Assembly (NCBI RefSeq): GCF_009258225.1
Contig: NZ_CP043617.1
Span: forward strand, 310,001 to 374,000
Reading direction: 5' to 3'
DNA: 64,000 bases
Source: Sulfurimonas lithotrophica
GTDB lineage: Bacteria > Campylobacterota > Campylobacteria > Campylobacterales > Sulfurimonadaceae
A program made the translations under genes and the position numbers. How positions within the stretch are numbered: the stretch's first letter is position 1; each line of letters opens with the position of its first letter. Below the pieces are notes generated by a model, which did no database searches, was not told where the DNA came from, and worked only from the letters and a program-made list of their open reading frames with translations. Shown here in pieces: positions 14,213 to 64,000 of the stretch.

Positions 14213-14836
14213 ATGAGCATAGGTATTTCCAAGGCATCAAAAGAGGATGCCGGATTTTTAGCACAGATGATTCTTCAAAGTTCCAGAGCTGAAAAAAAAT
14301 TTGGTATATATGATTTGGTTTTTGGAGTTAAAAAAGATGAAGAGTTGTTAAAATATTTAGAAAGACTAATAGTTACAGATACTAAAAACCATTGTCATTA
14401 CAGTAATTTTTTAATAGCAAATATAGATTCAAAACAAGTCGGTACACTTTGTAGTTATGAGCCTCGAATATCTACACACGATGCATTTAAAAGATCATTG
14501 CAGGAGATAGGTTTTGAAGGTGATATAAGTGAATATGAAGATATATTGAACGTATGTAACTTTGCACAAAATAATCGTACATTGATTTTTGATTTTATGG
14601 AAGAGTTGGAAGGTTTTGTTGATGTCGGTATTTTAAAAGCATTAATGCAAAAGAGTTTACTTACGGCTAGATTAAAGGGCTATAGAATAGCACAAACAAT
14701 AGTAGAAATTGGATCGCTTGAAACTATACTGCTTTATAAAAAACTGGGTTTTAGAGAAGTAAAACAAAAAGAGTGTGATTTATATAAAGAAAAATTTGGA
14801 CGTATGGGTCTTGCACTTTTAGAGATAGAGTTTTAA
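14213..14836 (+). CDS. GNAT-type acetyltransferase-like protein
   Basis: The 207-residue protein has a GNAT-like ending: a helix (RLKGYRIAQTIVEIGS) followed by LLYKKLGFREV, the usual beta6-alpha4 pattern, and an N-terminal ISKASKEDAGFLAQMI strand-helix. The acetyl-CoA loop (Q/R-x-x-G-x-A) is weak, so activity and substrate are unknown. It starts within 60 bases of the divergent L,D-transpeptidase gene. The antiporter gene follows with 2 bases between the stop and its proposed AUA start. Confidence 0.65.
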   Translation: MSIGISKASKEDAGFLAQMILQSSRAEKKFGIYDLVFGVKKDEELLKYLERLIVTDTKNHCHYSNFLIANIDSKQVGTLCSYEPRISTHDAFKRSLQEIGFEGDISEYEDILNVCNFAQNNRTLIFDFMEELEGFVDVGILKALMQKSLLTARLKGYRIAQTIVEIGSLETILLYKKLGFREVKQKECDLYKEKFGRMGLALLEIEF

Positions 14837-14838
14837 CC

Positions 14839-16206
14839 ATAGAACCTACTTTTTTATCAGTTATCCCTTCTCTTTTTGCCATTGGTTTGGCATTAATAAC
14901 AAGAAATGTTAATTTATCCTTATTTAGCGGAATAGTGCTTGGTATTTTCTTTTTAAGCAACTATTCGATTTTACAAACATTTATTCAAATATATGAACTT
15001 TTTTATCAGCTTCTTAGTACTCCTTGGGTTTTAAAAACATTGGCTTTTGCTATTCTTGTGGGTTCAATAATGGAACTGATTGAAAAAAGCGGTGGGATAG
15101 GCGGTTTTGTAGAATATCTTGAAAATAAAAAAAAGCTTGTAACTTCCAAACGCTCTGCTTTGATGCTTAGTTATATAGTAGGGGTCGTAATATTTGTCGA
15201 ATCTTCTATTACGGCACTTATAAGTGGAGCTGTAGGGAAACCTCTTTGTGATAAATATGAGATTTCAAGAGAAAAGCTTGCTTATGTATGTGATTCTACA
15301 TCTGCACCGATTAGTTCACTCATCATATTAAACGGATGGGGTGCTTTGCTGCTTGGTTTAGTGTTAACCCAAATAGAGACAAATGCATTAAACATAAGTG
15401 CTGTTGAATTGTTAATAGATTCCGTATTTTATAATTTTTATGCAATATTTGCATTGTTTGTTACTTTTATCTCTATCTGGTATGGAATAGATATCGGTCC
15501 GATGCAATATGCTACGTATAAAAAATTTGATATTAAAGAGAATAGTTTACATAAAAGTATGTGGTATATGATAAGCCCAATATTTTTAATGGTCTTACTA
15601 GTTTTTTTATTTTTATATATCACAGGTGATGGAAGTATATTTAAAGGAAGCGGTTCAAGTTCTATTTTTTATACAATGCTCTCAACTTTATTATTTATAA
15701 ATATATATTATTTTTTTACTAAAAATATGAGTTTTAAAAATATACAAATACATTCACTTGTAGGGGCTAAAAAACTTTTTCCGATAGCTTTGATTTTGTT
15801 ATTTGCTTTTGCTTTGGGTGAAGTGAGCTCAGAGTTAAAAACAGGCTTGTATTTAGCATCCTTGGCAAGTCAAAATTTAAATCCGGTATTTTTAGGATTT
15901 ATTATATTCTTGTTAAGCTCGATTATATCTTTCTCAACGGGAACCAGCTGGGGTACATTTTCTATAATGATACCAATAGCGGTTCCTATGGCAATAGGGG
16001 TAGATGCCAATATTGCTCTTGCAATAGGTGCAGTAATATCTGGTGGTGTATTTGGAGATCACTGTTCCCCTATCTCCGATACTACTATAATATCCTCTCT
16101 GGCAACTGAGTGTGATGTAGTCTCACATGTAAAAACACAACTTCCATATGCATTGATATCAGGAGTATTGGCTTCTGTATTTTTTATAATCTTCTCATTA
16201 TCTTAG
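14839..16206 (+). CDS. NhaC-family Na+/H+ antiporter-like transporter
   Basis: This is a polytopic membrane protein of about 455 residues with roughly eleven helices and the repeated motifs of the NhaC family: VESSITALISGAVGKPL, STSAPISSLI, FSTGTSWGTFSIMIP and SGGVFGDHCSPISDTT. The frame's conserved N-terminus EPTFLSVIPSLFAIGLALIT lies upstream of every ATG, GTG or TTG except an internal TTG at 14887, and the only plausible initiator is ATA at 14839, two bases after the previous stop. If TTG at 14887 is used instead, 16 residues of a conserved helix are lost. The transported ions or substrates cannot be read from sequence. Confidence 0.85.
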   Translation: MEPTFLSVIPSLFAIGLALITRNVNLSLFSGIVLGIFFLSNYSILQTFIQIYELFYQLLSTPWVLKTLAFAILVGSIMELIEKSGGIGGFVEYLENKKKLVTSKRSALMLSYIVGVVIFVESSITALISGAVGKPLCDKYEISREKLAYVCDSTSAPISSLIILNGWGALLLGLVLTQIETNALNISAVELLIDSVFYNFYAIFALFVTFISIWYGIDIGPMQYATYKKFDIKENSLHKSMWYMISPIFLMVLLVFLFLYITGDGSIFKGSGSSSIFYTMLSTLLFINIYYFFTKNMSFKNIQIHSLVGAKKLFPIALILLFAFALGEVSSELKTGLYLASLASQNLNPVFLGFIIFLLSSIISFSTGTSWGTFSIMIPIAVPMAIGVDANIALAIGAVISGGVFGDHCSPISDTTIISSLATECDVVSHVKTQLPYALISGVLASVFFIIFSLS

Positions 16207-62198: not shown

Positions 62199-63221
62199 TT
62201 ATAAAATCAACATAGCATCGCCGTAAGAGTAAAAACGATATTTTTCTTTTATAGCTTCAGCATATAATTCTTGTGTTTTTTCAACTCCAACAAATGAAGC
62301 TACAAGCATCAACAGTGTTGATTTTGGCAGGTGAAAATTAGTAAGCAGATGATTAACTCGACTTGGTTTATTGTTCGGATGCAAAAATAGATTTGCTTCA
62401 CCTCTTTGAATTTTTCCGTGCTTGGCATAAAACTCGATTGTACGAGTAGAGGTGGTTCCTACACTTAAAACCGGTATATCCGAATCTAATATCTCTTTAG
62501 CCGCATCTGAAATATCATAATACTCCGAGTGCATCGGATGCTGTGTTATCACATCTACATCTACGGGTTTGAAAGTTCCACTACCTACATGAAGAGTCAC
62601 ATATGCATATTTATGCTTTTTACATATACGCTTATGTTGTTCGGGTGTAAAATGAAGTGATGCCGTAGGAGCTGCAACCGCACCCTCATTAGACGCAAAT
62701 ACACTTTGATATTCATCTTCATCGCTTTTATCATCTTTTCGGTTTATATAAGGCGGTAGCGGGACATGACCTATTTTATCTATTATAGGAAGTAAATCCT
62801 CAAATCTTAGCTTTATATAGTTTTGGTAAAACTCAACCACACGACTTCCGTCATCCTCTAATTTTATAACTTTTGCAACTAAATCATTATCGAATAAAAT
62901 CTCTGTTTGGGCTTTTACTTTTCCACGAATATATACGTTTATATTATATGCATCTAACGGACGGTTTATAAGAAGTTCTATCTTACCTCCGCTTGGTTTA
63001 TGACCGTATAGTCTTGCTTTTATTACTTTTGTATCGTTAAATATAAGTGCACAGTTTTTTGGAATATATTTTTCGAGTTCATAAAAGTATGTATGGATTA
63101 TTTTATCTGTTTTTCTGTTATATACTAAAAGTTTTGCATGGTCTCTCGGGTTTGCGGGATGGCTTGCTATGAGTTCATCAGGTAGATAAAAATCATAGCT
63201 GGAGGTTAAAAGCGGGTCTAT
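62199..63221 (-). CDS. queA: tRNA preQ1(34) S-adenosylmethionine ribosyltransferase-isomerase
   Basis: QueA builds epoxyqueuosine at the tRNA wobble base. The full family length (340 residues) is reached only with an ATA start at 63221: the conserved N-terminus DPLLTSSYDFYLPDELIA, NPRDHAKLLVYNR, ALIFNDTKVIKARL and GKIELL all lie upstream of any ATG, GTG or TTG, apart from an internal GTG at 62840 that would remove 127 residues. A perfect GGAGG lies 7 bases before this ATA, and ATAG overlaps the tatC stop. Further motifs are HVGSGTFKPVDV, HSEYYDISDAA, VGTTSTRTIE and NHLLTNFHLPKSTLLMLV. Confidence 0.92.
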   Translation of the reverse strand: MDPLLTSSYDFYLPDELIASHPANPRDHAKLLVYNRKTDKIIHTYFYELEKYIPKNCALIFNDTKVIKARLYGHKPSGGKIELLINRPLDAYNINVYIRGKVKAQTEILFDNDLVAKVIKLEDDGSRVVEFYQNYIKLRFEDLLPIIDKIGHVPLPPYINRKDDKSDEDEYQSVFASNEGAVAAPTASLHFTPEQHKRICKKHKYAYVTLHVGSGTFKPVDVDVITQHPMHSEYYDISDAAKEILDSDIPVLSVGTTSTRTIEFYAKHGKIQRGEANLFLHPNNKPSRVNHLLTNFHLPKSTLLMLVASFVGVEKTQELYAEAIKEKYRFYSYGDAMLIL

Positions 63222-64000
63222 TTTTTATCCTCCAAACCAAGTATTTCGGAAAGACTTTCATCATCTTCGCCTTCATCCTCATTTTCTTCCTCTTTTGGAG
63301 CAGGATTTACCAGTCTTACTATAAGTATTGAAAAACCGTAAAGGATTATAAGCGGACCTGCCATGAGAAGTTGAGTTAAAACATCAGGAGGTGTTAGAAG
63401 TGCAGCGACTATAAATATGATTACGATAGCATATTTAAAAAACTCTGCCATTTGACGGTCGTTAATCATTCCAAGTAAGGCTAAAAAGTATGCAAATATA
63501 GGAAGCTCAAATGCTAAACCAAATCCAAACATAATTTTTGTAAAAAAACCTACATAATCTTCTATATTTATAAGCGGAGTAAATTTAAAAGAACCAAAGG
63601 TGATTAAGAAGTCAAATCCAAAGGGAGTAACTACATAGTAGGCAAATAAAACACCAACGGCAAACATGCTTGTCCCGCCAAATATGAACGGAATAATCAT
63701 CTTTTTTTCATTTGCATAAAGACCCGGCGCTATAAACATCCAAATTTGAGATAAGATTATCGGTAGTGCTCCAAAAATTGCCGCAAAAAATGCTACTTTG
63801 AGTGCTACAAAAAAAGCTCCTCCAACTTGAGTAGTCGTAACCATACCATCAGCTGCGTGAACCGATTTTTTCCCGACTTCTATAAGTGCTTGGTTTAGCG
63901 GTTCTATCATCCAATTTAAAATCGGTTCATGGAAATAAAACATTACAAAAAACATAACTATTAAGCTACCTACGGATATTGCAAGTCTTTTTCTAAGCTC
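63218..64000 (-). CDS. tatC: Twin-arginine translocase subunit TatC (5' end cut off)
   Basis: TatC is the receptor subunit that recognises twin-arginine signal peptides. The frame runs through the window end, so the N-terminus (with the expected HLxELRxR motif, of which ELRKRL is visible) is partly missing; 260 residues are seen. Six helices are expected, with APGLYANEKK and PFIFGGTSMFAVGVLFAYYV, VTPFGFDF and ALLTPPDVLTQLLMAGPLI typical. The C-terminal tail (about 30 residues) is very acidic. The TAG stop overlaps the proposed AUA start of queA. Confidence 0.96.
   Translation of the reverse strand, partial: ELRKRLAISVGSLIVMFFVMFYFHEPILNWMIEPLNQALIEVGKKSVHAADGMVTTTQVGGAFFVALKVAFFAAIFGALPIILSQIWMFIAPGLYANEKKMIIPFIFGGTSMFAVGVLFAYYVVTPFGFDFLITFGSFKFTPLINIEDYVGFFTKIMFGFGLAFELPIFAYFLALLGMINDRQMAEFFKYAIVIIFIVAALLTPPDVLTQLLMAGPLIILYGFSILIVRLVNPAPKEEENEDEGEDDESLSEILGLEDKK

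Follow-up and report, generated by a model that had tools for sequence, protein, structure and literature searches.

A probable AUA start codon for queA at the tatC stop in Sulfurimonas lithotrophica and possible further AUA, AUU and AUC starts at gene junctions of Campylobacterales

Introduction

Translation initiation at AUA and AUU is allowed by genetic code table 11, and bacterial genes using these codons are known one by one, as in the case of pcnB from Escherichia coli with its AUU start. Here, we analyse a stretch of 64,000 nucleotides from Sulfurimonas lithotrophica (contig NZ_CP043617.1, positions 310,001 to 374,000; hereafter the window), in which the gene queA follows tatC on the minus strand and very probably starts at AUA. 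Throughout, ATG, GTG and TTG are called canonical, and AUH stands for AUA, AUU or AUC.

Several comparable systems have been described. In Staphylococcus aureus, AUA starts are reported for infC, ccpN and citZ and an AUU start for cvfC1, with reporters of cvfC1, ccpN and citZ giving about 10–30% of AUG output and an extended Shine-Dalgarno (SD) sequence predicted for infC, cvfC1 and ccpN (PMC13009471). As in these genes, where the codon of ccpN is conserved to Bacillus subtilis (PMC13009471), the proposed AUH codon of queA occupies the normal start position. In contrast to the Staphylococcus cases, which come from ribosome profiling and for three genes also from reporters (PMC13009471), the evidence for queA, a tRNA-modification gene whose start shares ATAG with the upstream stop, comes only from sequence. 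An AUU start of E. coli infC is named in a title cited in PMC2268962. With E. coli infC and pcnB, queA shares the replacement of AUG by a near-cognate codon differing at the third base. However, E. coli infC is autoregulated by initiation factor 3 (IF3), whereas here AUH codons sit on rnpA, greA and queA, and infC has a TTG.

The arrangement of the genes resembles termination-reinitiation overlaps of the NTGA type, which likewise feature an overlap of −4 nt and an SD inside the upstream gene (PMC6728339, PMC12548453). Unlike there, queA and greA start with the ATA of ATAG and ATAA, respectively, and the term "AUA" is absent from the main texts of both papers (PMC6728339, PMC12548453). An overlap of rnpA and rpmH is also found in Thermus, where rpmH is nested in rnpA behind two AUGs (PMC9841429); in the Campylobacterales read here, rnpA most likely starts at an ATT within the 3' end of rpmH. 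A search of the open-access literature turned up no paper describing queA, greA or rnpA of Campylobacterales as starting with AUH.

Results

The source genome of S. lithotrophica (G000; 2.4 Mb, two contigs) contains a single match to the QueA profile PF02547, which covers the whole profile (positions 1–322 of 322) with an E-value of 8.6e-112 and 373 bits at a cut-off of 25. The match lies in the window on the minus strand, a detail which a previous sequence-only reading of the window had not given. That reading had proposed an ATA start located seven bases after a GGAGG and sharing ATAG with the tatC stop, a resulting length of 340 residues as well as the lack of any canonical codon across the first 127 codons, and the bases bear out each of these statements (Table 1). 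Counted from the ATA, the first in-frame canonical codon is a GTG at codon 128, and between the in-frame stop upstream and the start of the Pfam domain, ATA is the sole ATN or NTG codon of the queA frame. The overlap with tatC amounts to −4 nt.

The same junction was found in a second species (G002) from a separate assembly, where its sequence, GAGGATAAAAAATAGACCCG, is identical to that of S. lithotrophica, ATAG included. The two QueA proteins share 89% identity, with 110 of the 127 N-terminal residues being identical, and substitution rates per nonsynonymous (dN) and synonymous (dS) site are given in Table 1. With a dN/dS of about 0.04, the intact frame is under strong purifying selection. 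Since the junction is shared despite saturated synonymous sites and slow protein change, a base error or decay is very unlikely. Both tgt and queH have one match each in S. lithotrophica and are also present in G002 and in a further relative, G015, and the S. lithotrophica transfer RNAs (tRNAs) for Asp, Asn, His and Tyr carry G34 anticodons.

Table 1. Coordinates of the features discussed, in positions of the window
Feature	Position	Strand	Basis
queA coding sequence of 340 codons plus stop, counted from ATA	62199..63221	-	PF02547 over full profile, single match; dN 0.067 and dS 1.67 against G002
Proposed ATA start codon of queA	63219..63221	-	Sole ATN/NTG codon from in-frame stop to domain; identical codon in G002
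Shine-Dalgarno GGAGG, 7 nt before ATA	63229..63233	-	Duplex energy -9.3 kcal/mol
tatC stop TAG, overlapping the queA start as ATAG	63218..63220	-	Read from bases
In-frame TAA closing the queA frame upstream, two codons before ATA	63225..63227	-	Read from bases
Run of six A, considered as frameshift site and judged unlikely	63221..63226	-	Also in tatC of G015, with ordinary ATG start
tatC, upstream gene, extending past the window end	63218..64000	-	Open reading frame
Na+/H+ antiporter-like gene, candidate ATA start at 14839-14841	14839..16206	+	Conservation in G002 upstream of first canonical codon

Within the genus, a protein search detected QueA in 96 of 100 genomes, and a DNA search with the tatC–queA junction gave matches in 125 of 135. 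Of the 125 junctions fetched, 124 were readable, the one of G112 being interrupted by a contig end. A canonical queA start, picked by script, is present in 122 of them (73 GTG, 41 ATG and 8 TTG). The ATA proposed by the sequence-only reading is thus matched in G002, but not in these other 122 genomes. In a second set of 80 genome contigs, partly overlapping the first, all 79 readable junctions have a canonical codon in the queA frame, with L065 again interrupted by a contig end. In G015, the tatC frame ends in KKQS and a stop, followed by ATT ATG CAA GAT AAA GAC CCT, which places an ATG three codons before the aligned position, and the start region of G008, GTG CAA AAT AAA GAG, resembles that of G015. 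As a side observation, queA of G131 (L131 1741-2752) begins with an ordinary ATG and continues in a second frame from near residue 155, owing to either a frameshift or an assembly error.

SD strength was scored as pairing energy with the anti-SD core. None of the 122 canonical queA starts (median -2.9 kcal/mol, strongest -6.7) reaches the -9.3 kcal/mol obtained for S. lithotrophica. The other AUH sites of this genome introduced below score weaker (greA -4.2, rnpA -3.8, glycosyltransferase -6.2, antiporter -2.9), so that a strong SD is no general rule for AUH starts.

GreA matches were found in 132 of 135 genus genomes, and 90 of these loci were read. A canonical codon is present in 78, three of which rely on a TTG 3–5 codons upstream that is possibly part of the preceding gene, while the remaining 12 lack any canonical codon before the conserved Glu-Pro and all have ATA, ATT or ATC there; the codon is ATA in S. 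lithotrophica, G002 and G015. Five of the 12 could use an ATG at codon +4, which is missing in the other seven (S. lithotrophica, G015, G002, G064, G026, G111 and G079). These seven form two groups in the greA tree, namely (G064,(G002,(S. lithotrophica,G015))) at 100/82 and G079 with G026 and G111 at 91/72. In S. lithotrophica, the start of the gene greA (C1:420119-420646) shares ATAA with the stop of the frame before it, which has 110 residues; for that preceding frame, no Pfam match above the cut-off was obtained, only a sub-threshold FliD_N. The domain GreA_GreB_N begins at residue 5 of the greA frame, well ahead of the first TTG. As a second GreA-like gene, 52% identical, is located at C1:1683031-1683501, the ATA-started copy may be non-essential.

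For rnpA, located at C1:399032-399373 in S. lithotrophica, the in-frame stop that closes the frame upstream lies within rpmH, and the start of the RNase P domain follows within about 10 codons. Matches occur in 128 of 135 genus genomes. All 30 loci read have an ATT at the same position, where it overlaps the L34 codons for Arg/Lys-Leu; 24 of these loci have no canonical codon among the first 15 rnpA codons. Pairwise differences in codons 4–8, past the rpmH stop, fall mostly on the third position (889 vs 440 and 319), and differences inside the RNase P domain are likewise weighted towards it (1423, 891 and 682). The substitution pattern of codons 4–8 therefore points to a translated stretch.

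Order-wide, the rnpA family was present in 88 of 90 genomes, and 30 genomes outside the genus with 21 family labels were chosen for reading; the families f16 (frames of 99–104 residues) and f19 (no match) lie outside this selection. Up to three codons beyond the domain start, 26 of the 30 have no canonical codon, and all of these have an AUH codon before the domain, being ATT in 25 and solely ATA in G150. The four genomes with a canonical start are G147, G135, G148 and G192. The L34 protein accounts for part of the conservation of the ATT. Some species could alternatively start rnpA at an NTA codon that overlaps the rpmH stop, and the SD spacing of about 9 nt favours ATT.

Comparison of 464 kb of S. 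lithotrophica with 770,539 bases of G002 yielded 309 reciprocal-best pairs of frames with at least 70 codons and at least 50% identity. In 30 of these, one of the two genomes has 9 or more aligned codons ahead of its first canonical codon, and these pairs were judged by eye. Five S. lithotrophica genes have no canonical start at the conserved N-terminus: queA (ATA), greA (ATA), rnpA (ATT), a family 2 glycosyltransferase (ATC, with ATA in G002, preceded by AAGGGG) and the antiporter-like gene (ATA). This corresponds to 1.6% of the pairs in a comparison within the genus, from which starts with a canonical codon close behind would escape.

The open frame of the antiporter-like gene spans 14788-16206 on the plus strand, and its ATA follows an upstream frame of 212 residues, whose stop lies 2 nt before the ATA. 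Among canonical codons, the TTG at 14887 comes first, 16 codons past the ATA, and it is there that open reading frame calling limited to canonical codons begins. We consider this the weakest of the five cases, since the Pfam match (PF03553) covers residues 184–470 only, the SD is weak and the start depends on conservation in G002 alone.

Another of the 30 pairs is queH, which lacks a canonical start in G002 and reads TAAGG CTTTAAC ATT there (L229 1489-1503, contig C19), with TAAGG seven bases before the ATT and the first canonical codon at index 179; in S. lithotrophica and G015, the queH start is ATG. The remaining flagged pairs have an ATG or TTG at a plausible start, are antisense frames or differ in their upstream parts, and the pair at C1:323467 (61% identity) is uncertain. 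A coding-potential screen for frames whose first canonical codon lies 18 or more codons inside returned 24 frames in S. lithotrophica and 22 in G002, most of which, by eye, looked like antisense frames or like ordinary genes starting at a later ATG. Separately, a phosphatase-like frame of G002 has AGGAG six bases before an ATA.

On the 36.6 kb contig C2 of the S. lithotrophica assembly, tRNA matches on one strand have counterparts at mirror-image coordinates on the other (9749/26772 and 16923/19598), for which reason C2 looks like a fold-back assembly product.

Discussion

We conclude that queA of S. lithotrophica is very probably a working gene with its translation start at AUA. The sequence-only reading had preferred AUA initiation to a pseudogene or a base error, and this preference is strengthened by the identical junction in G002, purifying selection, the strong SD and the presence of tgt and queH. 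In the mechanism we propose, ribosomes ending tatC would stop at the UAG, one base past the A of the AUA, with the GGAGG seven bases before the AUA, which would couple queA to tatC. Pairing with the SD and the position of the ribosome would then allow the initiator tRNA to engage AUA in spite of the third-base mismatch, with a QueA yield that is probably a fraction of the AUG level.

Regarding its origin, the sequence-only reading had assumed an ATG-to-ATA change. This part is probably wrong, since relatives start 1–3 codons further upstream and G015 retains an ATG three codons upstream, which makes a deletion at the junction likelier than a substitution. Most likely, judging from the aligned junctions, a deletion in S. 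lithotrophica and G002 removed the old queA start and left ATAG. The AUA would thus have arisen via the loss of a few bases, with the strong SD offsetting the weak codon. A return to ATG may be hindered, because the change from ATAG to ATGG would abolish the tatC stop.

Several observations weigh against an AUA start and have to be considered. Only two of the 124 readable genomes, S. lithotrophica and G002, are without a canonical queA start, and in G002 the SD is weaker (-5.8 kcal/mol), with 7 of the 122 canonical queA sites scoring equal or stronger. Identities in the neighbourhoods of queA, infC, tgt, queH and greA, dS and the greA tree all group S. lithotrophica with G015 and place G002 outside, the greA tree at 100/95 with a bootstrap flagged as not settled. 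To account for the shared ATAG, one therefore has to assume recombination, lineage sorting or a subsequent change in G015, and in windows of 120 columns no clear recombination patch was found at the queA junction of S. lithotrophica and G002. Conservation of the ATA is moreover partly forced by the tatC stop together with the preceding lysine codon. In addition, each of queA, greA and rnpA is offset by −1 relative to the frame of its upstream gene, as such overlaps require, but as frameshifting would require equally. Finally, normal reinitiation in E. coli is argued to use 30S subunits with IF3 and hence to be proofread (PMC2268962).

The main alternative, which we regard as improbable, is a TatC–QueA fusion arising at the run of six A before the tatC stop, either from ribosomes shifting to the −1 frame or from slippage during transcription. 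With tatC ending in AAA AAA TAG and the frames offset by −1, joining at this run would read into queA without any start codon, and comparable runs, also with the −1 offset, occur at the greA junction of S. lithotrophica (five A) and at rnpA of some relatives (six A). However, the signature of −1 frameshifting is an X XXY YYZ heptamer with an SD 10–14 nt upstream of it, whereas the slippage site here would be T AAA AAA and the GGAGG ends only 2 nt before the run, a position well suited to the ATA. The run of six A is also present in tatC of G015 alongside an ordinary queA ATG start, and consequently did not arise for frameshifting into queA. Furthermore, such a run is missing at the AUH starts of rnpA in S. 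lithotrophica (four A, then G), the glycosyltransferase and G002 queH, and a fusion would tether a cytosolic enzyme to a membrane protein.

That queA is a recent pseudogene, in an organism which lacks queuosine or obtains it otherwise, would account for the missing canonical start, but is very improbable given 340 open codons in two species, the low dN/dS, the lack of a second copy and the presence of tgt and queH. Still less credence is due to a base-calling or assembly error hiding a canonical start: while the doubtful, apparently mirror-duplicated contig C2 speaks for some caution towards the assembly, the junction is identical in a different species and assembly, and an ATG here would give ATGG and remove the tatC stop. 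A-to-I editing of the messenger RNA, through which AUA would be read as AUG, is the most remote of the explanations, as TadA does edit bacterial messenger RNA, but the edited base would sit in UAG instead of the preferred UACG loop, the tatC stop would be lost and ATT at rnpA could not be accounted for.

The AUA start of queA may be part of a wider habit, in which genes that overlap the gene before them or follow it closely, such as greA, rnpA and others, start at AUA, AUU or AUC, with a ribosome that terminates on the upstream gene and is held by the SD possibly accepting AUH. The starts of queA, greA, rnpA and the antiporter-like gene all lie within or a few bases from the upstream gene end; at the glycosyltransferase, no overlapping upstream frame was found, and an SD of its own precedes this gene. 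In E. coli, reinitiation on an SD-less reporter decreases when IF3 is in excess, and loss of ribosome recycling factor permits starts at non-canonical codons behind a stop (PMC2268962).

We give about even chances to the proposal that Campylobacterales keep a standing class of AUH starts at overlapping or close junctions, comprising, for most of the order, an rnpA start at the AUU within rpmH and, for Sulfurimonas, the ATAG and ATAA of queA and greA. Under this proposal, proofreading would in effect be looser for ribosomes arriving from the upstream gene, and about 1–2% of S. lithotrophica genes may start at AUH and be shortened by gene finders restricted to ATG, GTG and TTG.

Other candidate causes were considered and set aside. 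IF3 of S. lithotrophica, G002 and G015 has K77 and Q80, as opposed to E and K in the 27 other IF3s compared, as well as changes at 50 and 131 (E. coli numbering), but is not obviously altered in the clade. Such a trio-specific change cannot explain the rnpA ATT, which occurs far outside these three genomes, and a relaxed IF3 was rejected as the cause. An AUH start of infC itself was likewise rejected, since all 30 infC loci read have a TTG in frame where the start is expected. A scan of 30 tRNA loci (45 matches, some of the other 15 lying inside the 30) showed CAT on the Met tRNAs and no TAT anticodon, as an AUA-reading initiator would have.

If AUH starts of this kind are real, gene finding limited to ATG, GTG and TTG shortens or misses real proteins, and the NTGA rule for stop-start overlaps should also admit ATAR. 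It would also become possible to test if proofreading of the start codon is weaker in reinitiating ribosomes. Most of the sampled members of the order would then appear to start a subunit of RNase P at AUU, and S. lithotrophica would have about five AUH-started conserved genes in the part of its genome that was sampled.
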